Shown: positions 10,880 through 25,928 of the stretch, one piece after another | Layout: each line of letters starts with the position of its first letter | Numbering within the stretch: the stretch's first letter is position 1 | DNA from: an uncultured Thiodictyon sp. | GTDB lineage: Bacteria; Pseudomonadota; Gammaproteobacteria; Chromatiales; Chromatiaceae | DNA length: 36,635 nucleotides | NCBI RefSeq assembly: GCF_903946935.1 | Contig: NZ_CAJAXH010000041.1 | Location: 1-36,635 of the forward strand | Direction: 5' to 3' | Made by a program: the position numbers and the translations under genes | Notes under the pieces: model-generated | What the model saw: the letters and a program-made list of their open reading frames with translations, nothing else | Databases searched by the model: none | Told to the model about the DNA's origin: nothing

Positions 10880-11947
10880 TCATCGGGAGCCCTCGAGTCG
10901 CTTCAGCCGACGCTCCAGGGTAGCCAATCGCTCATCGGTAGAGGGCGGGTCTGTCGTCGCCTCCAGGGCCGTGACCGCGCGCGTAACGACCTCTGCCAGC
11001 GACTCACCCGGGCGGCGCAGCTCAATCAGCCGATGGTGGGTCTCGACATCCAGGCGAAGCGATTGCATTCGCGCCCTCGGTTGGCCGTGTCTGCCAATGT
11101 GCCGCAATGCCGCAGGCAGACGATCATAGAACGGTGGTTTGGAGCTGGTTCGGGAACGACCCCGCCAGGTGAATAGGCCCAGTGCCATCGCTACCGCCAG
11201 CAACGCTACCCAGAAGAGGCTCCCGGTGCCCTTTGGCGACACCTGCGGCTGGTCTGTAGTGACTGGTGTAGGCACCTCTGGTAGTGGCAATTGCGGTATG
11301 GCCGATGCGGGGAACGATGGCGGCGGACTGACGACCGACATGTCGGTCGCTGGGGTTGCCGCAGAGGTGTCATCAATGTTCAGGTTTGCGGGTGTGGTCG
11401 CTTCCGGCAGTCGACTGGTTGCTGGTGCCGTCGCCTTTGGCGGCGGGTGAGCCGCGGCGGTGTCGGTCGCCAGGAGTGCCTCAAAGTGACTGATTCGTTG
11501 GGCATAGACGGCACGCAGACAGTCCGCCGTGTCGCAGGCCTCGCGGTGTTTCCTCAGCCAGTCCTTTTGCATCTGTTCCGGCGCCAGGCCACGCGCCAGC
11601 AATTGCGAATAGAGTGCCCCCATTCTAATATCTTGGGCATGCACGTCGGGGACGGCACAGATGAGGCGTTCGACCGACGTTCTCGCTCGATCGCAGTCCC
11701 AGGTGACAGCGGGTTTCCACGATTTCATCGGCGCCGGTTGCGTTTCAGTCGGTGTCTGCGCTTCGCCACAATCATCCTTGTAGGCATATAAGTTTCCGCC
11801 ACCGTTCCTGGCGCACCAAGCGTCGCCAGCCGGGTATCGGCAGGCGCTGGCGGGGTCGTCAGCCGCAAGACAGGTCGCATCAACAAAGCGACAGAAGACG
11901 GCGCAGAAAAGCGCAGTCGCGAATTGGCCGATAACTCTATTTTTCAT
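10880..11947 (-). CDS. LprI-like periplasmic domain protein with membrane helix and helix-rich tail
   Basis: A 355-aa protein. A signal peptide ends near residue 28 (ATCLAADD), followed by a small Cys-containing segment. A domain resembling LprI (DUF1311 type; pattern DCDRARTSVERLIC...DC) spans about 75-150; in that family two disulfides and the Cys pattern are typical, and some members inhibit lysozyme. A low-complexity Pro/Thr linker (about 155-240) leads to one membrane helix (LFWVALLAVAMALGLF, about 247-263). The cytosolic tail contains RLDVETHHRLIEL followed by ESLAEVVTRAV, which looks like a ribbon-helix-helix fold, then a short coiled coil. The domain order would link envelope sensing to a cytosolic module. 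It lies between repeat elements at the edge of the toxin-antitoxin patch. Function is not established. Confidence 0.65.
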   Translation of the reverse strand: MKNRVIGQFATALFCAVFCRFVDATCLAADDPASACRYPAGDAWCARNGGGNLYAYKDDCGEAQTPTETQPAPMKSWKPAVTWDCDRARTSVERLICAVPDVHAQDIRMGALYSQLLARGLAPEQMQKDWLRKHREACDTADCLRAVYAQRISHFEALLATDTAAAHPPPKATAPATSRLPEATTPANLNIDDTSAATPATDMSVVSPPPSFPASAIPQLPLPEVPTPVTTDQPQVSPKGTGSLFWVALLAVAMALGLFTWRGRSRTSSKPPFYDRLPAALRHIGRHGQPRARMQSLRLDVETHHRLIELRRPGESLAEVVTRAVTALEATTDPPSTDERLATLERRLKRLEGSR

Positions 11948-13549: not shown

Positions 13550-14767
13550 CTAGCTCGGCCCCGTGTCCTCTGTCGGATCAAGAGCCGGTTCGGCGTCGGT
13601 GGCGGCTCCACCCTTGGCAAAGTAGCTGTCGTCAATTTCGATTAGAGATTGAGGTCGCTTCTTGACGCAGACTTCATGCTTGAGCAGCAGTTCTATGAGC
13701 TTATCCCCATCGATCAATGTGATGGGTGCGGCTCCCGGGTACAAGGCCGCATCGGTGCAGCCCTTGGCGAAGCGACCGATGGTGATGATGGTGCCGCGGA
13801 TGGCTTGGTGGTAAGGTAACGCGCCGCGCAACTGGTCGAGCACCGGGCGGGTGATAGAACCCTGATGGCGCTTCACCTGAACGACTTCCTTGATCTGAGT
13901 GATGCCGAACTGGTAATTGGCGATCACATCGACACCCTTATCGCCGCTCTGCTTGGTAACGACCACGTCCTCGTAATCCATCGCTTCGAGGAGGTCGCGG
14001 ATGAGAATCTCGAAGCGGTAGGGGTTTATCTTACCGAGCAGTTCCCGGAGTGCTGTGACCTGAGCGTCGTTGTAGCTCTTGATCGCGCTTAGTACTCGTT
14101 GATGCGCCTGCTGCTCCGGCGCGCCACTCGAATCGGCGGCGTAGGCGATGCCTTTCTCGGTGATGGCGTAGGTATTACCTGCACGAGTGGAGTAGCCGCG
14201 TTCGACAACGTTGAGCATACGATAACGTAGCGTATGCTGGATGGTCGAAGGAGTCCTATAAGTTGAATGGGCCAGCAAGAAACTACCCCAGTCTTCGAGC
14301 AGATCGCCACGTTTACCCGGCGAATGCGCGGCGAGGATGGATAGTAGATTCGGAATGCCTTCGGCCTCGTCGATCTTGCGGACCGTGGCAATATCGTCGT
14401 CGAGAAATGCCTGCCCGATGTCGGTCAGGCGGTATGCGCCAGTGCTGTCAGGCATCAGCAGCTTGTACGTGGCGATAAACCGGTAAGCGCCGTAAAGGTA
14501 GCGGGGGTTGATGGTCTCGCAGCTTTCTTTCCAGATTCGGCTGGCTAACACTGCGGACTCACCGCGGAGGCGTTGAATAATCCATTCGTCCGGGTTGCTC
14601 CAATCGACCTGATTTTGGGGCGTGCCGGTATGGTCCCATACGGCGCTGACCATGTCGCGGACGGCAGCTTGGCTGGTCGTGCCCGTCCAGATGACGATGA
14701 GCCTGCGGACTTCCGTATAACTCGGGAGATTGGGAATGTGAACGAGGTCGTGATGAGCTTCGGTCAT
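13550..14767 (-). CDS. Mrr-type restriction endonuclease
   Basis: 405 aa. The N-terminal half is helical with winged-helix-like segments, including YRLTDIGQAFL and YAITEKGIAYA, which are probably DNA-reading. The C-terminal catalytic domain is of the Mrr_cat (PD-(D/E)xK) type: a helix with NPYRFEILIRDLLEAM, then GDKGVDVIANYQ carrying the active-site Asp (about 277), then VVQVKRH supplying the Q-x-K pair (about 295-300), then the conserved LRGAL and GTIITIGRFAKG stretches. Mrr-family enzymes cut modified or foreign DNA. No methyltransferase is adjacent, consistent with a modification-dependent (type IV) enzyme. Start ATG 14767. It stands in the defence and TA patch. Confidence 0.88.
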   Translation of the reverse strand: MTEAHHDLVHIPNLPSYTEVRRLIVIWTGTTSQAAVRDMVSAVWDHTGTPQNQVDWSNPDEWIIQRLRGESAVLASRIWKESCETINPRYLYGAYRFIATYKLLMPDSTGAYRLTDIGQAFLDDDIATVRKIDEAEGIPNLLSILAAHSPGKRGDLLEDWGSFLLAHSTYRTPSTIQHTLRYRMLNVVERGYSTRAGNTYAITEKGIAYAADSSGAPEQQAHQRVLSAIKSYNDAQVTALRELLGKINPYRFEILIRDLLEAMDYEDVVVTKQSGDKGVDVIANYQFGITQIKEVVQVKRHQGSITRPVLDQLRGALPYHQAIRGTIITIGRFAKGCTDAALYPGAAPITLIDGDKLIELLLKHEVCVKKRPQSLIEIDDSYFAKGGAATDAEPALDPTEDTGPS

Positions 14768-15966: not shown

Positions 15967-15992
15967 CCGCTTTGCTTTTCACAGGTGCAATC

Positions 15993-18900
15993 ATGGCTGA
16001 CAGCGACTATCGTGCAGAGCAGGGTACTATTACCCCGGCCTTTTTCATCGGTGTGGGTGGGGTCGGTTCCCGGATCGTCGATCGGATCGCGGCGCGGGCC
16101 GCCAGTCTGCCCAATTGGGAGAGTCAGCTGCGGCCGCTGACTGCATTTATATCAATCGATACCAATGACCTGGATCAGGATGCGTTGAAGTCGATCCCCA
16201 AGGGCAACCGGATCAATATCGCGGCCTTCGACAAACAGAAGGTGGTCGAGCATCTGCGCCGCTCTAACGATCCGCAGGCGGCGCAATGGCTGCCCGCCAC
16301 CTATAACCCGCGGGAGGGTGTCAAGCCGGGGGCCGGACAGATCCGCATCGAATCCCGGCTGGGGTTCTTTTTTCATTCACCGGCGATCCGCCAGCGTCTG
16401 CATGATCTGGTCAACCAGGCCCTGGCCCCGGGCATCACCTGGCGCAAGCACGGCAAGTTCAATATCTATCTCTTCTGCACCCTGGCCGGTGGCACCGGCT
16501 CCGGCAGCTTCCTGTCGCTGGCCTATCTGGTGGATGAGATCGTCAAGCGTGCCAATTGGCAGCCGCGCGTGATTGCCAATCTGTTGCTCTCGACCCTGAT
16601 GACCGATAAGGTAGGTCCGGAGCTGCATACCAATATCCATGCCAATACCTATGCGGCGCTGAAGGAGCTGGAGAGCCTGACTAAGCTCGATTACGCCCAG
16701 GTCAAGCAGTCGGGTCGCACCGCCGAGCCCTTCCAGTATGTCCGCAACGAGTCATCGCGCGATCGGCTGAGTGTCAGCACGCGGCCCTTTTTCGTCTCAT
16801 TCATCCTCGACCGCCCGCCCCATGTCGGCACCCGCGACCCGGAGAAGGTCATTGCCGATGCCGCCTTTTTGCAGGTCTTCACGCCGGTCATCAATGAGCT
16901 GGCCGGTGAGTATGACAACTATGAGCAGCACCTGGAGTCACTGACCCGCTTCCCCGGCGACTTGAGCGATGTCGGCGAGGGCTTTACCAAGAATTTCGGC
17001 ACCTTCGGCGCGGTGGCCCTAGTCCTGCCGGGCGCCGACCTGCTGGAGTATTGCGCGCTGCGCTTTGCCGCCCAGGCCCTGCGCGCCCAGATCACCTTTG
17101 GCGTGGATGAGTCCGAGGTGGCCGATGACCGTGCCCGCGCCCTGGCCAAGCTGGCGGTTGACTATAACAGCCCACGCTTTGCCCAGATGTCGGACGAGGG
17201 CCGCGAGGAGCTCATCAATGACTCATTCGTTGCATCGGTGCGTGAGCTAGCCCGCCAGGATGCCATTGAGGAACTGTTCGACGGCTATTGGTATCGGCTG
17301 GTCCAGTCGGTGGATACCGGCGCCGTCACCGGCACCACGGCGAAGGGTGACGCGGTGCATGCCGATACCCTGGTGCAGCAGGTCGAGCGGCGACTGGCCG
17401 AACAGCGTGAGGTGCTGATCAATCGTATCGCGATCAAGGATCGCACCATGTTCTTCCAGAAGGAACAGGCCAATGCCTATATCGACATGGTCTCCAAGCT
17501 CGAGGAGGAGGTGCGCCGCGGTCACCAATTGGTCGATGGCGAGGCGCTGGGGCTGGTGACTGGCGCCCGCGAGGGGGAGCCGATCGCCGGGCTCAAGCTC
17601 GACCCGATCCAGGAGCGTTATCTGGTGGTGCGTCTGCTGGAGATCTGCGGCAAGAACTGGCTCACCAAGGCCCGCGACGATGAGCAGGCGGCCGAGTCGA
17701 AGGACATCGTCAAGTCGCAGAAAAAGCGCGCCGAGCTGCGCGATCTGACCTATGAAAACCTGCGCAAGGCGGCGGCCAGTCGGCGGCTGTTCAATCGCGA
17801 TCAGGACTTTATCCATGCCAAGGAAGAGGCGCAGGCGGTCTATACCCAGGCCAAGACAGCGGCCCTGCGCTATCTGGATGCCCGAGTGCGCCTGATGCAA
17901 TTGCGTGGCCTCCTGGAATTCCTGCAAGGCCGGTCGCGCCAATATGTGCGGCTGGCCACCCGCATGGACGGATTGGTGAAGGAACTGGAGAAGGATGCGG
18001 CCCGGTTGCAGGCCGGCGAGACCGCCGTGGTCCCGTCCTATAGTATGCGGGTGGAGGTCTTCGAGACCCTGGACGAACCGCGTCGCCGCATCTGGCAGCG
18101 GGTGTGGAGTCGGCTCTTCATCGAAGACGGGCGCTTTGTCAATACCTTCGATCGTCAGGCGCTCGCCGAGGCCATTTCAACTCAATTGAAGCCGGTGGTG
18201 CAGGAGGGCGGGCGGGTGGTCGCCAAGGGTGTGGATCAGACCGTGGCCGATCTGCGCCGGGCCTTGACGCAACTCGGGCGCGAGCGGTTGCGTGGGGCCA
18301 TCTTTGGCGGTGAGGGCCAGCCGGGGCTCGATGTGATCTCCGGGTTGAATCTGGAGGCCAGGCTGATGCTGGAGCCCACCAAGGCGCCGGGTGAGTCGGT
18401 GACCGATGACGCGCTGGCGGGCTATCGTAAGCGCAAGCTCCTGGCGCTCGGGCAACTGGCGGGGGTGATGGCGCGGGTGAGTGCGGCGGAGTCCGCGGCG
18501 CTCGATGATGGTGTGGTCACCAATCGCACTCGGCTGGTCGTGCTCGGTGTCGATAGCGATGCGGGTGGGCGGGGTGCCGAGGCCTTCAAAGACGAGCTGA
18601 TCGATGTCTTAAGCGATGGCGGCCGGCAGGTCAAGACCACCCAATGGCATGACCCGCGCCTGATCATCGTTCATGATGTGGTGATGCCGATCCCGCTGTA
18701 TTATTTCGCGGCGCTGATCGACGAGATCGAGCCCTCGTATCTGCGGCTCGCGGGGGATGAGCGGCGCGGTTTCCGCCTGCACACCGACAGCCATTGGGAG
18801 GACGCCCTGCCGAATCTCAATCCGCGCCGAGCCGAGGTATCTGCCGGTTGGGCGCTCAAGACCCTCACGACCGGGCTGATCGCGCGGGTGATCGGGGTCG

Positions 18901-19295
18901 ATGCCGTCGCGGTCGAGGGCGTGGATACGGATCGCTTTGTCTGGCGCCGTGCGGGCGCCGAGCCATTCATCTTGGGTGCCGAGTTTGTACTCGCCCTGGC
19001 CAAGATCGGCGCCATCCATGACGACCTGCACCTGCGCGCCTCGCTGGAGGATCAGATCGGGCAGCAATTGGGCGCTATGACGTCCGATGCGCGCCAGATC
19101 CGCCGGTTGGAGCTGATCGGGCAATTGACGGCGGACCTGGACCACATCAGCGTCAAGCGCGTGCAAGGCCTTGAGGTCTCAGCCTATGATTATCTCAATG
19201 GCCCGGTGATGCGCGCATTGCTGCATGGGCTGAAGGAGCTGCCTCCCGACCCGCAGTCCCCGCGGGAGGCGCGGCGCGAGCAGAAGCGGTATTAA
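15993..19295 (+). CDS. Tubulin-like protein (Tubulin_2 type), probable GTP-binding
   Basis: 1100 aa, cytosolic. The first strand and loop IGVGGVGSRIVDRI (about 19-32) and the signature loop LAGGTGSGSF (GGTGSGS at 166-172) match the nucleotide-binding T1 and T4 loops of the tubulin/FtsZ fold; a FISIDTNDLD stretch between them fits the next strand. This pattern is that of the bacterial Tubulin_2 family, which is much longer than FtsZ and little studied. Beyond about residue 450 the protein is largely helical and charged, including KSQKKRAELRDLTYENLRKA and further coiled-coil-like stretches, with no membrane segment. ATG 15993 is preferred over TTG 15972 because AGGTG lies 5 nt upstream. A two-pass membrane partner gene follows, which suggests a membrane-tethered assembly. 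Polymerisation is not shown by sequence. Confidence 0.85.
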   Translation: MADSDYRAEQGTITPAFFIGVGGVGSRIVDRIAARAASLPNWESQLRPLTAFISIDTNDLDQDALKSIPKGNRINIAAFDKQKVVEHLRRSNDPQAAQWLPATYNPREGVKPGAGQIRIESRLGFFFHSPAIRQRLHDLVNQALAPGITWRKHGKFNIYLFCTLAGGTGSGSFLSLAYLVDEIVKRANWQPRVIANLLLSTLMTDKVGPELHTNIHANTYAALKELESLTKLDYAQVKQSGRTAEPFQYVRNESSRDRLSVSTRPFFVSFILDRPPHVGTRDPEKVIADAAFLQVFTPVINELAGEYDNYEQHLESLTRFPGDLSDVGEGFTKNFGTFGAVALVLPGADLLEYCALRFAAQALRAQITFGVDESEVADDRARALAKLAVDYNSPRFAQMSDEGREELINDSFVASVRELARQDAIEELFDGYWYRLVQSVDTGAVTGTTAKGDAVHADTLVQQVERRLAEQREVLINRIAIKDRTMFFQKEQANAYIDMVSKLEEEVRRGHQLVDGEALGLVTGAREGEPIAGLKLDPIQERYLVVRLLEICGKNWLTKARDDEQAAESKDIVKSQKKRAELRDLTYENLRKAAASRRLFNRDQDFIHAKEEAQAVYTQAKTAALRYLDARVRLMQLRGLLEFLQGRSRQYVRLATRMDGLVKELEKDAARLQAGETAVVPSYSMRVEVFETLDEPRRRIWQRVWSRLFIEDGRFVNTFDRQALAEAISTQLKPVVQEGGRVVAKGVDQTVADLRRALTQLGRERLRGAIFGGEGQPGLDVISGLNLEARLMLEPTKAPGESVTDDALAGYRKRKLLALGQLAGVMARVSAAESAALDDGVVTNRTRLVVLGVDSDAGGRGAEAFKDELIDVLSDGGRQVKTTQWHDPRLIIVHDVVMPIPLYYFAALIDEIEPSYLRLAGDERRGFRLHTDSHWEDALPNLNPRRAEVSAGWALKTLTTGLIARVIGVDAVAVEGVDTDRFVWRRAGAEPFILGAEFVLALAKIGAIHDDLHLRASLEDQIGQQLGAMTSDARQIRRLELIGQLTADLDHISVKRVQGLEVSAYDYLNGPVMRALLHGLKELPPDPQSPREARREQKRY

Positions 19296-19389: not shown

Positions 19390-19441
19390 TGAATCCTCGA
19401 TTGAATAATCCGTGCCGTTCGCGGAATTCAGGTCAAGCAAT

Positions 19442-21847
19442 ATGTCCAGACCCACGCTCCTGATCGGCTTCGGCGCCTACGGCCTGGAGGCCTTGCAGCG
19501 GCTGCTGCACCAGTCGGCCCTGCGCGGCGTGCTGCGGTGGCAGGAGACCCAGGGCGGCGGTGTCGCCTCGGCGCGGCGCCAGTTGCAGGACTTGGCCCTG
19601 CTCGCGTTGCCCGATCCATTCGAGCGCTCGGGCGAGGGCACGGTCGCTGCCGCCGCCGGTGCGCCGCAATTCTTGACCGACCTCTATCGCCAGATTCAAG
19701 GGCCGGCGGCTAACGTGCGCGCGACGCCCGATGAGGTCGCGCTGCGGGTGCGGCGGATTGCCGATGAGTTGGTCGCCCAGACCAGTTTCGAGCGCAGCGA
19801 CGGTGTGGGTCTCGACCTCATCTGTCTGGCGCGTCCGGGTGTGCCGGATGCGATCCCGCACCTGGACATCCTGCTCCAGCACTGTCTGGAGTCCCTGGCC
19901 GATTCGAGCTTCTTCAAGGTGGCGGTGCAGGGGGCCGAGAATCTCAACTGTATCCTGATCCTTGACTTCGAGGACTACTGGCAGGGGACCGGCACGGCGG
20001 CGGCGGTCGAGACCGCCCGTGCCCTGCGCGCGGCCCTGCGCAACTCCATGCAGAGTTGGGAGCGCCGCCGCGCGCTGCGTCAGGTGGCCGTGGATCGCTG
20101 CTATCTGGTGGACGGGCGCACCGCGGTCGGTTACCGGCCGCCCCATGTGCGACTCGACGAGGCGGAGCTCTTTCTGGAATTGCTGTTGTTCGAGGGCCTG
20201 CGCACCAGCAAGCAGGCGCTGTATCAGCAACCATCGCTGATTCAACCGGTCGCGGCCACCTTCGGTATCCGGCTGCTGGAGGAGACCACCCTGGTGTTGA
20301 GCCGCGAGGCGGCGGCCACCTTCGGGCTGCGCTGGCTCGATGCGCTGATCGGCGATCGGGGGCCGTGCCCGGATCGCGAGGCCCGGCGGGTGCGCGAGAC
20401 CCTGGCGCCGTTGAGCGCAGCGCTGCTGGAGCGGCGCTTAGACGATGGCCAGTTGGAGCCACTCTTCGAGGCGCGTGCCGAGGCCTTGGTCAGTGCATTG
20501 ATGGCCGTGCCGGAGCGCGAAGCCGCGGATTGGCCCCAGCGGGTCCAAGAGGTCTTTGCGCGTGAGCGTCAAGCGCTGCGTCAGGCCCTGGAGCGGTCTG
20601 CCTGGGAGCTGGTCAGTGCGTTCAAGGAGTCGCACCTCAATGACCTGGAGCAGCGGCTGGTGGCGGCGGTTGACGCCGACCTGCACGACGAGCGGGCGCC
20701 GGCCTCGCTGACCCTGGTGCGTGCCGCATTGGATGAAGTCCGCCAGGGGCTTGCCGCCGGGTCGCAGCGGCGCCAGGCGCCGTCTGGGCAGACCTTGGAT
20801 TCCCCGCTGCACCGCCTGACCCTGCTGCATCGACAGTATCGCGATCAGCTCGACGAATGGTTGAGCAGCCAGGGTCGCGCACTGCAATGGTTTTGGCCGC
20901 TGTGTGCCTTATTGTTCGCCCTGGGGTTGGCCGAACCCTCGGTCCGGCTCGTCTATCAGATCGACCCGCCGGGCCAGCATTGGGTGGACGCGCTCGTGAA
21001 TGGGTTGCGCACGCTGAATTGGCCGCTGTTCTGGACCCTGTGGTGGTTCATCTGGCTGTGGGCGGTCCTGGCGCTCCAGGTCCAGCCATTGATCACCGGG
21101 CGCATTGCGCGCGCCCAGCGCTTTTTTGTCAGTGCCCAGCGCGGACGCTTTCACGATCATCTCCGCGACCTGGTGGACCCATTACGGGAATCGGTCTTGG
21201 CGCAGGTCCGCCACAATGTGCGCTCCAGTCTCACCAATGATGTGCAAAAGACCCTTACCCGCCTCGACGAGCGCCTGGCGGAGCGCGGACGGGAGATGAC
21301 CTGGCTGCGGCGTCAGCTCAATGAGTTCTTGCGGCTCAGTAGTCAACCGGCCATGGCGGTGCGCCAATGGGTGCGCCGTGGGGCCACGGTCGAGACCATG
21401 ATGCGGCCGCGCCCGATCGAGCGGGTCTGCTATCCGCAGGACGACCTGCCCCGTCCGTTCGCCGGTTGGAGCGAACACTTCTGCGATGCCTTTCTCGATC
21501 CGCTGCGCTTCATCGATCGCCTGAGCCAGCGCTATGCGGATGCCGACGAGCAGGCGCAGGAGCGGCGTACCGCCGATGAGGACCAATTGCGGCGGCGCGA
21601 GCTGATCGATTTCATCGACAACAGCAAGCTGGCCCCCGCCTGCCGCTTTCTGCAGGACACCGGTGTGAGCGAGGAGCGCCGCTGGTGCATCGCCGCCCAG
21701 CGTTGGCGCAACATCCCCGGCATGGTCGATGAGATCAACAACCGGCTCGGCATCGTCAATGACGACATCACCCCCGCCGCCGATCGCTCCCGCGTCTATC
21801 TGCTGGTGGTGCAGACCGGGGTGGCAGCGGTCAATCTGGAACGGTGA
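19442..21847 (+). CDS. Two-pass membrane protein, partner of the tubulin-like protein
   Basis: 801 aa. It begins MSRPTLLIGFGAYGLEALQRL, a strand plus glycine loop very like the first nucleotide loop of the upstream tubulin-like protein (IGVGGVGSRIV), but I find no GGTGSG signature. Residues about 300-470 are helical and charged. Two hydrophobic segments (about 482-500, WFWPLCALLFALGLAEP; about 523-545, FWTLWWFIWLWAVLAL) with a short loop between them place both large ends on the same side of the membrane, presumably the cytosol. The C-terminal 250 residues are again helical with a coiled-coil character. ATG 19442 is chosen because the glycine loop then starts at residue 9; an earlier ATG (19412) has no support. 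No family is recognised beyond this context. Its likely role is membrane anchor or co-assembling subunit. Confidence 0.72.
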   Translation: MSRPTLLIGFGAYGLEALQRLLHQSALRGVLRWQETQGGGVASARRQLQDLALLALPDPFERSGEGTVAAAAGAPQFLTDLYRQIQGPAANVRATPDEVALRVRRIADELVAQTSFERSDGVGLDLICLARPGVPDAIPHLDILLQHCLESLADSSFFKVAVQGAENLNCILILDFEDYWQGTGTAAAVETARALRAALRNSMQSWERRRALRQVAVDRCYLVDGRTAVGYRPPHVRLDEAELFLELLLFEGLRTSKQALYQQPSLIQPVAATFGIRLLEETTLVLSREAAATFGLRWLDALIGDRGPCPDREARRVRETLAPLSAALLERRLDDGQLEPLFEARAEALVSALMAVPEREAADWPQRVQEVFARERQALRQALERSAWELVSAFKESHLNDLEQRLVAAVDADLHDERAPASLTLVRAALDEVRQGLAAGSQRRQAPSGQTLDSPLHRLTLLHRQYRDQLDEWLSSQGRALQWFWPLCALLFALGLAEPSVRLVYQIDPPGQHWVDALVNGLRTLNWPLFWTLWWFIWLWAVLALQVQPLITGRIARAQRFFVSAQRGRFHDHLRDLVDPLRESVLAQVRHNVRSSLTNDVQKTLTRLDERLAERGREMTWLRRQLNEFLRLSSQPAMAVRQWVRRGATVETMMRPRPIERVCYPQDDLPRPFAGWSEHFCDAFLDPLRFIDRLSQRYADADEQAQERRTADEDQLRRRELIDFIDNSKLAPACRFLQDTGVSEERRWCIAAQRWRNIPGMVDEINNRLGIVNDDITPAADRSRVYLLVVQTGVAAVNLER

Positions 21848-21849
21848 GC

Positions 21850-21978
21850 TTTTGTGGCAAGCGCAGTCATGTCACCATGACGACGCTCGCCATCGTGCAT
21901 AATCCGCAGGACGAGGTGAAGACCGGAACCTTGCATGCGATGCGCAAGCCGCTTGGCCTGACGCTGACCGATCTATAG
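21850..21978 (+). pseudogene. hicA: hicA toxin remnant
   Basis: Starting 2 nt after the partner gene stop, the frame reads CGKRSHVTMTTLAIVHNPQD followed by EVKTGTLHAMRKPLGLT and a TAG. GKxSH with the catalytic His, then a VxTGTL turn, is the C-terminal half of HicA double-stranded-RNA-binding-fold toxins. The first about 25 residues are missing. It is probably inactive. Confidence 0.7.
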
Positions 21979-21988
21979 CGAGGTCCCG

Positions 21989-22156
21989 ATGAATTTCGTA
22001 TATCCGGTGACCTTGACCCCGGACCCCGATGGCGGGCTGGCCATCGGTGCGGTTCGCTCCCGCTCGCCGCACCCTACGCGCGCTCCCCGGCATATCCCGC
22101 GAAATGAGTCTACTGTCCCCGGAATTCGCGGAAGGGAGTCGCTCCGCGGCGCATGA
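21989..22156 (+). pseudogene. hicB: hicB antitoxin remnant
   Basis: ATG 21989 has a GAGG ribosome site 5 nt upstream and follows the hicA stop by 10 nt, the normal hicAB order. MNFVYPVTLTPDPDGGLAI is the first strand pair of HicB; after residue 19 (22045) homology ends and the frame runs on through a palindrome into nonsense. Only the N-terminal 19 residues are genuine. Confidence 0.7.
22046..22073. repeat. REP-type hairpin at the hicB break
   Basis: GGTGCGG (22046-22052) pairs with CCGCACC (22067-22073), followed by CTACG. This is a widespread bacterial REP pattern. It begins at the exact base where hicB homology ends. Confidence 0.6.
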
Positions 22157-22186
22157 CCCGTTGCCAGGCACGCCTCCCCGCCGAGA

Positions 22187-22210
22187 TATCCGTGGTACGT
22201 CCCCTATTTC
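22187..22210. repeat. Left copy of an inverted repeat flanking the profilin and GDSL genes
   Basis: The complement reads GAAATAGGGGACGTACCACG, and a diverged copy (GAAATAGGGGAGGTGCCACG, 2 mismatches over these 20 nt) sits at 23571-23593 in opposite orientation. From memory, this motif resembles palindromes mobilised by REP-associated (RAYT) transposases; no such transposase is in the window. Confidence 0.5.
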
Positions 22211-22388
22211 GCCGCTATTTCGCCCGTCCCGCCCCGTCGGCTCCCGCTGGGGCTTGCCACGCCCCTCCGGGCGATGCTATGTTCGCCCTGCCTCAGCCGC
22301 CCGTGCGGTTGAACGCCCTAACCCTAGCCCCGCTCGTGATCTACCCCCGGAAGAAACCCCAAACCAAAACCCTCAGCCCCCAATGCAC

Positions 22389-22392
22389 GGAG
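22389..22392 (+). promoter_or_regulatory. Ribosome binding site for profilin
   Basis: GGAG six nucleotides before ATG 22399. It supports the 125-aa start and shows that the gene could be translated in a bacterium, though a chance match in imported leader DNA is possible. Confidence 0.5.
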
Positions 22393-22398
22393 AACACA

Positions 22399-22776
22399 AT
22401 GTCCTGGCAAGCATACGTCGATAATAACCTCGTTGGTGCTGGTCTGAAGCAAGCCGCCATCTTTGGCCACAATGGCACCTGCTGGGCCGCTTCCACTGGA
22501 TTCAATGTGACTGAGACTGAGGCCGCTGCCCTCTGCGCTGCCTACACCGATCCCAGCGGCATTCGTGCCAGGGGCCTCTTCCTTGAAGGCGTCAAGTACT
22601 TTACCCTCAGGGCCGATGACCGCTCCGTCTACGGCAAGAAGGGTCCTGGTGGTGTCGTCGCTGTCAAGACCCTCCAGGCCATCCTCATTGGCATCTATGA
22701 TGAGAAGACCCAACCTGGCCAAGCTGCCAACATTGTTGAGAAGCTGGCTGACTACTTGATCGATCAAGGCTACTAA
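22399..22776 (+). CDS. Profilin, eukaryote-type actin-binding protein
   Basis: 125 aa, the normal length for a fungal profilin and complete. In eukaryotes profilin binds actin monomers, poly-proline and phosphoinositides. Here MSWQAYVDNNLVG is the N-terminal profilin signature. Trp3, Tyr6 and Trp29 (CWAAS) and the C-terminal ADYLI...GY helix supply the aromatic poly-proline platform, and the LRADDRSVYGKKG hairpin with KT and IYDEKTQPGQ is the actin-facing side. ATG 22399 fits both homology and a GGAG site. Codon use differs from the neighbours: 0 of 18 Ala codons are GCG, all 7 Lys are AAG, 2 of 4 Arg are AGG and only 2 of 10 Leu are CTG; GC is about 56% by hand count. No intron. It reads towards the GDSL gene with a 5-bp gap between stops. 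Recent transfer from a fungus is the simplest reading; assembly contamination must be excluded. No actin gene is visible. Confidence 0.95.
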   Translation: MSWQAYVDNNLVGAGLKQAAIFGHNGTCWAASTGFNVTETEAAALCAAYTDPSGIRARGLFLEGVKYFTLRADDRSVYGKKGPGGVVAVKTLQAILIGIYDEKTQPGQAANIVEKLADYLIDQGY

Positions 22777-22781
22777 AGAGG

Positions 22782-23498
22782 TTAGGACTCGCTGTCACTG
22801 CTGGTGCCTGGCACCGATTCCGATGCTTCGATTTCGCCCAGCATCTCAGCGACGGATGCTTCGATGGCCTGCGCCCAGATTTCGTAGCCCTTTTCGTTCG
22901 GATGCAATGCGTCGGGGATGATCGACCTGCGCATCACGCCGCCTGCTTCGAGGAACTTCGGGCCGATGTCCAGGAAGCGAACCATCTTGCCGTCGGCCAG
23001 CTTGGCGATGAGACCGTTGACCGTATCCAACTTGGCGCGGAGTTCGCCGGGCTTCTCTTCGCGCGGGAGGATGGCGAGAAGCAGTATTTTGGTATTCGAG
23101 AGTTTGTCGCGGAGCGTCTTCACAATTGCCGTGACGCCTGCGGCAATCTCCTCGGGCTTGTGGGAGTCGGCATTGTTGGTGCCAATCATGAGTACCGCCA
23201 GCTTGGGCGAGATGCCGTCGATATTCCCATTGTCCAATCGCCACAGCACGTGTTGCGTATGGTCGCCACTGATCCCCAGATTCAGGGCCTTGCGATTGGC
23301 GTAGAACTTGTCCCAGACGGCCTTGCCGTAAGCGCTCCATCCCTGCATGATACAATCGCCGATGAAGATCATATCGACATCGCCCATTTTGACCCGATCG
23401 CTCATGGATTGATGGCGCGCCTTCCACCAGTCGTCGGCGCGAGGCGCCGCATTGATCGCGGAGTTCTGTGCGTATGCGCCCGCAGGGGAAGGGTTCAT
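22782..23498 (-). CDS. PAF-acetylhydrolase-like SGNH/GDSL protein with Cys at the nucleophile position
   Basis: 238 aa, no signal peptide. It has all SGNH blocks in order: IFIGDCIMQGW (block I), NLGISGDHTQHVLWRL (II, Gly), MIGTNNA (III, Asn) and PDALHPNEKGY (V, Asp and His). This order and the HVLWRLDNGN stretch match the PAF-acetylhydrolase beta/gamma-like esterases of bacteria and animals. The nucleophilic Ser is replaced by Cys49 (TGT, one base from a Ser codon), so ester hydrolysis may be lost or altered. ATG 23498 is supported by AAGGAG 8 nt upstream. The C-terminal tail (ESVPGTSSDSES) covers a GGTGCC-T-GGCACC palindrome (22803-22815) and may be a late addition. GC is lower than average but codon use looks bacterial. 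It is convergent with profilin. Confidence 0.86.
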   Translation of the reverse strand: MNPSPAGAYAQNSAINAAPRADDWWKARHQSMSDRVKMGDVDMIFIGDCIMQGWSAYGKAVWDKFYANRKALNLGISGDHTQHVLWRLDNGNIDGISPKLAVLMIGTNNADSHKPEEIAAGVTAIVKTLRDKLSNTKILLLAILPREEKPGELRAKLDTVNGLIAKLADGKMVRFLDIGPKFLEAGGVMRRSIIPDALHPNEKGYEIWAQAIEASVAEMLGEIEASESVPGTSSDSES

Positions 23499-23570
23499 TT
23501 TCGATTCTCCTTCAGGAAAAGCAGGAAAACCCGAGGCGCGCAGCGCCTAACACATGCGTGCCACGGCTGG

Positions 23571-23593
23571 GAAATAGGGGAGGTGCCACGATA
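23571..23593. repeat. Right copy of the inverted repeat flanking the profilin and GDSL genes
   Basis: GAAATAGGGGAGGTGCCACG plus ATA, inverted relative to 22187-22210. The enclosed segment is about 1.4 kb and contains profilin and the GDSL gene. Confidence 0.5.
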
Positions 23594-23650
23594 GCTGGCA
23601 AGATACTGCGTGCGCGCGGCAACTGTTTCGGTCTGTGTCGGTCTATCTCT

Positions 23651-23675
23651 CCAGATCATCCGCCGGGTGATCTGG
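23651..23675. repeat. Short inverted repeat upstream of the GDSL gene
   Basis: CCAGATCA (23651-23658) pairs perfectly with TGATCTGG (23668-23675) around a 9-nt loop. It lies in the 252-bp spacer between the GDSL and cyclase-like genes. It may be an operator or mRNA hairpin; no poly-T follows. Confidence 0.4.
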
Positions 23676-23704
23676 CGCAATGCCGAGACCACCCACTGAA
23701 AACC

Positions 23705-23731
23705 CTTGGCGAGCTTGGCGCCTTGGCGTGA
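23705..23731. repeat. Palindromic repeat family A, single arm (copy 4)
   Basis: 27 nt identical to the reverse complement of 10706-10732 (CTTGGCGAGCTTGGCGCC then TTGGCGTGA). Only one arm is present; it ends 20 bp beyond the stop of the cyclase-like gene. Confidence 0.75.
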
Positions 23732-23750
23732 GAATCTGCCCTTCCCAGGT

Positions 23751-25928
23751 TCAGGGCGATGCCGGCGCGGCGGCGCCCGCGGCCGCCAGTTGGCGGGTCC
23801 GCTCCGCCAGCGGCTCGTCGACGATCAGCTCGAAATAGTGCCGCCGGTCGGGTTCCACCGGTCCCACGGTGTCGCCGTTCCAGTCACGCACCGGGGCGTG
23901 GCGCAACTCAATCCAGTGCGTGAGGCCGGCGTCGTCGCGATAGCCGCCGCTGAAGAACAGACAGTCCGCGGCCGGCGGATCGGGCAGGTGCAACTGGGTG
24001 AGGGGCAACTCCTCCTGGAGTTTGCGGAAGGCGTCCGCGTCGAGCTTGACGCCGTTGACGTTGTAGTTGAGCAGGTCGCGACCCGGCCCCGCGCGCTCAC
24101 CGATCACCGCGTCGCGCACGACCGCCACTCGGAAGGCGGGGCTGACGGGCAGGAAGCCGGAGCGCAACAGGAGCCCGGAGCAGGATGAGAGCCGGTCCGC
24201 CTGGTTGATGGCGCTGGAGATCATGATGGGACGCCCCTCGTCATAGAGGAAGTTGGGTTCCCGACGGGCGAATGAGATGCCGAGCCCCAATTCCAGTTCG
24301 GGCAGCCCGAGCGCGCGGTTGCGGACGTTTTGCTGGTTGACGACCTCGAGGATCTGGCGTGCCAGGCGGCAGGCGCGGGCCACCGCGCGGCCCTGGCCGT
24401 CGTCGTCCGCGTACTCGTAGAGCGCCAGGATCACCGCGTCGCCCTCCACGAACAGCTTTTCGGCCGCGAACCCGGCGAGCAGCCGGTTGACCGGATCGAA
24501 AAAGTTCAGGCTGAAGTGGGAGGCGGGGTTGAGCCCGCGCGCGCGCAGTTCCTCGGTGATCAGGGTGGAGCCGCGCACGTCCGCCTTGAGCACTGCATGT
24601 GAGCGAATGCGCCGCGGCGCGAGGCTGTCCGCGCCGCCCTCGCCGGCGCAGAGAAACGCATTGAGGCTGGCGTTTGAGCGGGAGAGTCGGAGCTCGTCCG
24701 CGCCCTCCAGCAGGTGGATGGCGTCCAGGGTCTCGAAGGTCTTGTAGGCGAGTTTGAGTCCTCGGCGCAGCCGCAGGAAGTCCACCAGATAGTGGCCAAT
24801 CAGTGCCAGGGCCGCGGCCGGGGTCTGGCGTTGACGCGCCGCCCGCAGGTGCTCCAGGGTCCGCAGGAGGGGGGCGGGGTCGGCGTGCCCGGTGGCGAGT
24901 GCCTGTTCGAGCTGGTGCCGGTTCAGTCGGCCGTCCGCCGCGTCCAGGACCAGTGGCAGCGGCAGCGTCTGGCCGAGCTGGGAGCGCAGGGAGGGCAGGG
25001 CATAGACGATCTCGATGACCCGGCGCCGTCCGTGGGCCGCCAACCCGGCCGCCAGTTGCCCCAACAGGTCGCGCTGGAAGGCGCTCCAGTCAGGCTCACC
25101 GCCCGGCGCTCCGCGGTCCCCGCGGTCCCCGCGGTTCAGGATCAGGCGCAGGTTGTCCGGTTCGTCGAGCCAGGAGGTCAGCCCCTGGCGGTATTCTGCC
25201 CGTGGCACGAACCCATCGAGTAGGGCCGCGGTGGGGAGCAGGCCGCGCGGCTGGTCCTGCGCCCGTTCCTGCGGTGCGTTGGTGTCCGCGGACACCGCTG
25301 CGGCGGTCAGCCACCCCGGCAGCCAGGGTGCGAAGGTCTGGGTCACGGTGTGCGCGGTCTGCGCCAGCCAGTCGCCGATGGCGGACCCGGCGAGCCAACC
25401 CAGTGGATCGTCGGTAGTCAGGGCTGGCCCGTCTCCGGGCTCGGCGACAAACAGGAGTGGGTTGAACAGCAATGTCTCGCCGACCGTCCACTGTGGCGCC
25501 AGGGGCGCGCCCGGCGGGGTGCAGAGCTCGCGTAACAGGCGTTGCCCGACCCGCCGTTGGGTCTGCGGTGACTGGGTCTCGGTCGCCACCAGTTGCAGCA
25601 GGCATTTGAGCAGGGCGAACTGGAGCAGGAGCGCTGCCTCGCCCGGGCGCTCCCCGGGGTGCCGGGCAAGGGCGGCATCGACCAGGTGCCGAGCGGTGTC
25701 GCGCAGGGCGGTCAGGTCCGCGGTGTCGGCCACGGGTACATGGTCGGCCGCCTCCTCGCGCACCAGTGTGCCCACACGCTCCGCTGCCAGGGCGCGCAAG
25801 CGGGGGCTCAACAGACAGTCGATGCGCGTGTTGTCGATCCCCTTGCCGAAGGCCGCCAGTGAGAGGGTCCAGGGGGCGGGGCGGGTCAGGGGTGCGCTAA
25901 ATTCGGCAAGGCTGGGGCGCCAGGGCAT
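23751..25928 (-). CDS. Class III nucleotidyl cyclase-like protein with large N-terminal region
   Basis: 725 aa with no convincing membrane helix. The last third holds a class III cyclase homology domain: KADVRGST (about 447-454) gives the first metal Asp, VEGDAVILALYE (about 492-503) the second, and SSAINQADRL provides the Asn and Arg found in the canonical VNLAARL transition-state motif. The substrate-selecting residues are too diverged for me to say cAMP or cGMP. The N-terminal 430 residues are helix-rich and unrecognised, with a small GDRGDRG microrepeat (DNA about 25115-25140). It is not part of the neighbouring operons; the next gene diverges. Start ATG 25928. It likely produces a cyclic nucleotide signal, but catalytic activity is an inference. 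Confidence 0.72.
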   Translation of the reverse strand: MPWRPSLAEFSAPLTRPAPWTLSLAAFGKGIDNTRIDCLLSPRLRALAAERVGTLVREEAADHVPVADTADLTALRDTARHLVDAALARHPGERPGEAALLLQFALLKCLLQLVATETQSPQTQRRVGQRLLRELCTPPGAPLAPQWTVGETLLFNPLLFVAEPGDGPALTTDDPLGWLAGSAIGDWLAQTAHTVTQTFAPWLPGWLTAAAVSADTNAPQERAQDQPRGLLPTAALLDGFVPRAEYRQGLTSWLDEPDNLRLILNRGDRGDRGAPGGEPDWSAFQRDLLGQLAAGLAAHGRRRVIEIVYALPSLRSQLGQTLPLPLVLDAADGRLNRHQLEQALATGHADPAPLLRTLEHLRAARQRQTPAAALALIGHYLVDFLRLRRGLKLAYKTFETLDAIHLLEGADELRLSRSNASLNAFLCAGEGGADSLAPRRIRSHAVLKADVRGSTLITEELRARGLNPASHFSLNFFDPVNRLLAGFAAEKLFVEGDAVILALYEYADDDGQGRAVARACRLARQILEVVNQQNVRNRALGLPELELGLGISFARREPNFLYDEGRPIMISSAINQADRLSSCSGLLLRSGFLPVSPAFRVAVVRDAVIGERAGPGRDLLNYNVNGVKLDADAFRKLQEELPLTQLHLPDPPAADCLFFSGGYRDDAGLTHWIELRHAPVRDWNGDTVGPVEPDRRHYFELIVDEPLAERTRQLAAAGAAAPASP

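Follow-up and report, generated by a model that had tools for sequence, protein, structure and literature searches.

The window analysed here (the whole of a 36,635-base contig, C41, from the genome of an uncultured Thiodictyon sp.) carries at positions 22399-22776 of its forward strand a complete gene for a profilin of eukaryotic type, an uninterrupted frame of 125 codons that runs from an ATG to a TAA. The gene and the signal that precedes it are as follows.

22399..22776, forward strand: profilin (P0001); matches the whole PF00235 profile and is 63% identical to Acanthamoeba profilin II
22389..22392, forward strand: candidate ribosome-binding site GGAG, six bases 5' of the profilin ATG

The profilin gene and its probable eukaryotic origin

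The 125-amino-acid product matches the Pfam Profilin model (PF00235) over its full length (profile positions 1-127 of 127) with a score of 165.2 bits (E 9.4e-49), the curated cut-off of the model being 25 bits, and a score of this size speaks against the frame at 22399-22776 being a chance open reading frame. Among the sequences of solved structures, 41 match the protein at an E value of 1 or less, and the top ones are Acanthamoeba profilins II (E 1.9e-46) and I (E 2.4e-44) rather than members of some other family. Aligned identities amount to 78 of 124 residues for Acanthamoeba profilin II, 76 of 124 for profilin I and 61 of 125 for the profilin of S. pombe. (Note that Acanthamoeba is the nearest relative among solved structures only, and that the actual donor may be another eukaryote.) The assignment of the fold rests on this homology; a single-sequence structure model had a mean predicted local distance difference test (pLDDT) score of 48.3, too weak to use.

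The aromatic residues W3, Y6, W29 and Y119 are all present (a WYWY set that is the same in both Acanthamoeba profilins and in S. pombe profilin), and we take them to be the poly-proline platform. K66, R71 and K80 are likewise all retained in the alignment, and K66, K80 and Y6 presumably correspond to K68, K86 and Y6 of Leishmania profilin, an equivalence that we drew in part through the S. pombe row of the alignment. In a study of the Leishmania protein, mutants of K86 and K68 are reported to have lost or weakened actin binding, and poly-proline binding by the Y6A mutant to be no longer measurable (PMC10907219). Judged by the residues that it keeps, the protein should thus bind actin monomers and proline-rich peptides in the manner of eukaryotic profilins. 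An earlier note, made from the DNA letters, had described the gene as a complete eukaryotic-type profilin with an intact poly-proline platform, an intact actin-facing hairpin and a usable ribosome site; the first three of these points are borne out by the matches and residues above, and for the fourth there is the candidate GGAG. A scan for promoters and terminators gave two promoter-like sites and one terminator-like site, as against means of 0.7 and 1.3 in shuffled sequence, and one of the promoter-like sites (22254-22283) lies upstream of the profilin gene. No Rfam family matched anywhere in 21840-23760 at an E value of 0.1.

The codons of the gene set it apart from its neighbours. None of its 32 alanine, proline, threonine and serine four-box codons ends in CG, compared with 953 of 2499 in the 14 other genes of the window, the lowest single gene among which reaches 29%. 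A deficit of this kind could stem from a eukaryotic donor that avoids CpG, in which case transfer presumably ran from the eukaryote to the bacterium. Together with the family match and the closeness to Acanthamoeba, the codon signature supports a eukaryotic derivation, such as the earlier note cites for the Microcystis profilin.

The genome has one profilin, and none was found in 54 other relatives, including the seven sister genomes compared at the protein level (so that one of eight genomes of the genus is positive), nor in 14 control genomes. The present genome is the only positive one both in a sample of 146 genomes of the family and in a sample of 398 genomes of the phylum, with none in the 397 others. 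(Note that the samples of relatives, family and phylum overlap.) A tblastn search of plasmids found profilins in three of 72,556 records, two of which are from one S. cattleyicolor strain, and the same kind of search of phages found none. Single-protein scans of the genome-contig and viral-contig collections gave no profilin relatives; these scans were limited by their search pattern and did not reach the Microcystis profilin PfnM, which is perhaps not among the species representatives. We found no report of a profilin in Chromatiaceae in open PubMed Central papers.

It is conceivable that the gene is an ancient bacterial or Asgard-type profilin rather than a transfer from a eukaryote, since divergent bacterial profilins are known from Streptomyces and Streptantibioticus plasmids. 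The plasmid proteins, however, are 36-44% identical to the one studied here as against 61-63% for those of Acanthamoeba, the 397 other genomes of the phylum sample have none, and the codons are unadapted to the genome, all of which makes such a descent exceedingly improbable. By comparison, we hold with high confidence that the gene is a profilin and that it came from a eukaryote; assembly error aside, its identity and eukaryotic origin are near certain.

The insertion site and the neighbouring genes

The genome is a 6.0-Mb draft of 321 contigs, estimated to be 99.96% complete and 0.23% contaminated. As the earlier note had it, the profilin gene lies between bacterial genes: both of its flanks match a sister genome (G003) at 84-90% DNA identity, and they do so on a single contig of that genome. 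The note had also spoken of a bacterial chromosome, and of this the part that stands is the location on a bacterial contig of 36.6 kb. The features around the gene are as follows.

19412..21847, forward strand: left syntenic gene, an open reading frame of 811 amino acids; no Pfam match at an E value of 0.01; synteny with G003
21854..22324, no strand: mosaic of pieces matching elsewhere in this and sister genomes (74-96% identity), 5' of the profilin gene; DNA comparison
22191..22215, forward strand: left arm of a 25-nucleotide inverted repeat, 84% complementary; the arms enclose the profilin and esterase genes
22325..23526, no strand: stretch of 1,202 bases with the profilin gene and a convergent esterase gene, without a DNA match in the genus among the matches listed; DNA comparison
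22782..23498, reverse strand: GDSL/SGNH esterase-like gene, Pfam Lipase_GDSL_2 at 90 bits, convergent with the profilin gene
23527..23755, no strand: further repeats beyond the esterase gene, with DNA matches in this and sister genomes
23566..23590, reverse strand: right arm of the inverted repeat, 84% complementary to the left arm
23751..25928, reverse strand: right syntenic gene, an open reading frame of 725 amino acids; no Pfam match at an E value of 0.01; synteny with G003

On the left, the G003 contig matches a tubulin-like gene together with 19412-21847; the match stops at 21848 and restarts on the right at 23721. The corresponding interval in G003 measures 5.2 kb and carries one gene for a DUF900 hydrolase and another of the WD40/caspase type, whereas that in the window measures 1.9 kb. 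(Note that in the DNA comparison within the genus 37 candidates were scored per genome, so that 22325-23526 may have matches beyond those listed.) A core pattern of the inverted repeat, picked post hoc, occurs twice in the window, and two occurrences were also seen in one of 100 shuffles.

Two further observations concern these surroundings. The tubulin-like gene (15972-19295, forward strand) encodes a large protein that scores 143 bits against Pfam Tubulin_2, and it and the 811-residue partner next to it are both syntenic in G003. At 23650-23755 there is a REP-like repeat of which this and the sister genomes hold dozens of partial copies.

The stop codons of the profilin and esterase genes are five bases apart. 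The esterase gene has codons of a bacterial type (19 of 57 of the form NCG), and its product, whose nearest solved relatives are PAF-acetylhydrolase IB subunits, has bacterial relatives on a Catenovulum plasmid (42%) and in one other of the 146 family genomes (40%); it has no match in the five sister genomes listed. The protein reads GDCIMQGW, with a cysteine at the position of the nucleophilic serine of the GDSL motif.

The foreign DNA with the profilin gene amounts to at most about 0.46 kb inside a contig that is syntenic on both sides, and since it sits between two sister-syntenic sides, a eukaryotic contaminant contig is an unlikely source for the gene and was set aside. A related concern is an assembly artefact in which a eukaryotic fragment has been stitched into a bacterial contig, as might be suspected from the foreign codons, the presence of the gene in one genome only and a draft in 321 pieces. 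Such an artefact needs two independent false joins within about 0.46 kb; moreover, the esterase gene five bases downstream has codons of the native type and bacterial relatives, contamination is put at 0.23%, and the contig that carries an actin gene (described below) is tied to the genus separately by repeats. We consider an artefact very unlikely. A recent transfer from a eukaryote to a bacterium, of which both the direction and the recency are inferred, suits the data better than contamination does.

A eukaryote-type actin in the same genome

The earlier note had likened the gene to a profilin and actin in a Microcystis strain. A profile search of the contigs of the genome for an actin was positive, finding one of eukaryotic type (375 bits) on contig C86, which is 3,064 bases long.

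L002:945-2096 (contig C86), reverse strand: eukaryote-type actin of 383 amino acids; Pfam PF00022

This result strengthens the comparison with Microcystis. The protein scores 379.9 bits against PF00022 (profile positions 6-410 of 410), and its top match among solved structures is beta-actin (E 7e-148; 61% identity). Its likely start is a GTG at L002:2096 behind a GGGAG, giving a protein that begins MTDEQVFDG. At either end C86 matches repeats of this and sister genomes, and the contig also carries an IS1595-type transposase domain; because of the end repeats and this domain, we place C86 in this genome or in that of a very near relative. A eukaryotic contaminant as the source of the actin contig is disfavoured by the same genus repeats at both ends.

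The actin has S, S and Y at positions 137, 157 and 161 in place of Q, D and H; Q137, D157 and H161 are residues with catalytic roles. A short N-terminal extension of the protein resembles one in a Methylococcaceae assembly (L052). In a small tree the actin piece of a Methylococcaceae assembly pairs with the actin of C86 with support of 85/91, below the starred level. (Note that the Methylococcaceae piece entered the tree as one of two frames and fills 27% of the columns.) A second, weak match to the actin model lies on contig C46 (25.8 bits, 40.7 with its neighbours). The model also matches six of the 14 control genomes, so that weak hits to further actin-related proteins of bacteria are to be expected.

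Eukaryote-type actins were found in three of the 146 genomes of the family sample and in one of the 398 of the phylum sample, the last being the genome studied here. The other two in the family appear to be those of Ca. (Candidatus) Thiosymbion, an ectosymbiont of Catanema, and of Ca. Thiobius zoothamnicola, the hosts of which are a nematode and a ciliate. In these two proteins (L042:9992-11080 and L045:9992-11062, respectively) the D-loop is largely deleted and the catalytic site is changed, to N137 and H154 in the first and Y157 in the second.

A pattern scan with one genome per species gave 14 actin loci, some of which have the look of eukaryotic contaminants or of damaged copies: L047 is split over two frames, L049, L051, L052 and L053 are cut off by the ends of their contigs, and L050 is rearranged. 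In Pseudomonas asturiensis LMG 26898 a divergent actin (L048:9998-11113; 50% identical to beta-actin) lies close to one end of a contig of 320 kb. The actins of Microcoleus sp. LEGE 07076 (L044:7783-8919) and Cyanobacteria bacterium UBA2566 (L054:9992-11119) are 85% and 89% identical to beta-actin, and neither of these two genomes gave a profilin match. No actin was found in viral contigs, nor in plasmids at an E value of 1e-20.

Possible partners of the profilin, and known systems

Among the 146 family genomes, only the one studied here has profilin and actin together. The sole profilin genome is thus one of the three that have actin, an event with a chance of 3/146 by a post hoc sum (both family samples number 146, and the listed rows largely agree). 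The course of events that we favour is that a Chromatiaceae-type bacterium recently captured the profilin as an intronless coding piece of less than about 0.5 kb, and that the poly-proline and actin sites, being retained, would allow it to bind actin monomers and proline-rich peptides. Its most likely partner would be the eukaryote-type actin that the same genome encodes at another place; together they may form or control a filament or sheet inside the cell, in the way of ActM and PfnM in Microcystis. That actin lacks most canonical profilin contacts and is altered at the three catalytic positions, and the interface between the two proteins would accordingly have changed. A recently acquired profilin, working with the divergent actin as its likeliest partner or simply kept alongside it, is, taken as a whole, the best explanation of the data, and we give it about an even chance; that the two proteins work together is the leading idea, held tentatively and at a little less than even.

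Several observations weigh against this explanation. The profilin gene lies on C41 and the actin gene on C86, and their G+C contents are 56% and 49%, respectively; because contigs and composition differ, the two probably arrived separately, and the transfer of both as one pair was rejected on these grounds. (Note that C86 is short and bounded by repeats, and that it may lie at any distance from C41.) The actin keeps four of the 14 residues of the profilin-binding face, as against 221 of 353 elsewhere (Fisher p 0.021, in a comparison of ten rows, uncorrected, the 14 face positions being five named in PMC9705415 and nine from general background). Of the five residues named there, it keeps one. 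Among nine other actins, five keep 13-14 of the face residues, one keeps 12 and three (L046, L048 and L050) keep 5-9. The eroded face argues against a simple canonical pairing. Moreover, a full-length profilin is absent from all 14 genomes with the scanned actin loci (G569 shows a partial match at 43 bits, above the cut-off, and the archaeon G568 one that falls below it). Finally, the overall codon use of the profilin gene (z = -5.9 against the 14 other genes of the window) does not by itself single it out, because two genes of the window are stranger (10880-11947, z -11.0, and the Mrr-type gene at 13550-14767, z -8.5), and its codons, little adapted to the host, are compatible with a passenger as well.

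Such a passenger, a eukaryotic coding piece without function, would have landed by chance in an insertion hot spot too recently to have decayed. Its donor-like codons, its presence in one of eight genomes of the genus and one of 146 of the family, and an interval bordered by repeats where the sister genome has unrelated genes are all what a passenger would show. On the other side stand the completeness of the frame, which has its start, its stop and a candidate ribosome-binding site, the conservation of the binding residues that were checked, and the actin in the same genome, as only three of the 146 sampled genomes have one. We regard the passenger as a real but doubtful alternative.

The profilin might instead be an effector or decoy that targets actin or proline-rich proteins in a protist or animal met by the bacterium, once it is secreted or once the bacterium has been eaten. 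The earlier note had likewise named actin of a host or prey as a possible target, and besides it a proline-rich protein of bacterial origin. The eukaryotic binding residues are retained, the apparent identity of the two other actin-bearing family members indicates that the family meets eukaryotes, and the actin of the bacterium itself looks ill suited to canonical pairing. The protein, however, begins MSWQ with no additional N-terminal stretch, and no secretion component was seen among the 11 window proteins scanned against Pfam (several of them without a family; this search covered the window only). A role of this kind appears improbable, and export or some other role, taken more broadly, is possible though unlikely.

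We reasoned further that the bacterium may have an actin-profilin system of its own assembled from two separate eukaryotic captures, a divergent actin without residues needed for hydrolysis and without most of the profilin face, and a fresh profilin, whose new interface may give a non-hydrolysing internal scaffold, in a family that takes up cytoskeleton genes repeatedly; we offer this as speculation. Parts of the eukaryotic cytoskeleton seem to have passed into bacteria on more than one occasion. The joint transfer of a eukaryotic actin and profilin is documented, in the literature consulted, for one cyanobacterium (PMC3254629), and a second lineage would make the event a repeatable one. It would also provide a natural experiment on what becomes of actin and profilin in a cell that lacks the actin-binding proteins of eukaryotes, of which there are more than 100, and it points to this family, some of whose members live on eukaryotes, as one that acquires genes of the eukaryotic cytoskeleton. 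What is new is the eukaryote-type actin on another contig of the genome that bears the profilin, the known precedent being ActM/PfnM of Microcystis.

Among known profilins, those of Acanthamoeba castellanii (I and II; PDB 1acf and 1f2k) share with the window protein a full-length alignment, the poly-proline aromatics and the YGK actin-contact motif; the window protein is one residue shorter after position 15 and has K66 where those of Acanthamoeba have H or R. Two plasmid profilins also score over the cut-off. That of Streptomyces sp. RLB1-9 plasmid pRLB1-9.2 (L024:9971-10315) is 44% identical, in a frame without the N-terminal part that holds W3 and Y6, and that of Streptantibioticus cattleyicolor pSCAT (L025:9986-10369) is 36% identical, without the YGK motif and Y119. 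(The pSCAT locus carries no annotation in its record.)

Eukaryote-like actins are known from other bacteria. BARP of Haliangium ochraceum is one (PMC3035250), and for the actin-like protein of Ca. Uab amorphum the accessible part of PMC6906331 names Aip1-like and Crn1-like candidates and mentions no profilin. Unlike these two, as far as the same portions of the sources go, the actin described here is accompanied by a profilin in its genome. In Microcystis aeruginosa PCC 7806, ActM and PfnM are reported to bind each other, to bundle and to form a shell; their genes are neighbours on an island and derived from eukaryotes, and the study concludes that the actin:profilin interface is conserved (PMC3254629). 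The present genome resembles Microcystis in combining a eukaryotic profilin with a eukaryote-type actin, and differs from it in that the genes lie on different contigs and that the actin keeps four of 14 profilin-face residues, so that we do not class the pair as a module of the ActM/PfnM type. With its eroded interface and its genes on separate contigs, the pair is best described, on present sequence grounds, as another putative example of what Microcystis shows, in a lineage unrelated to it.
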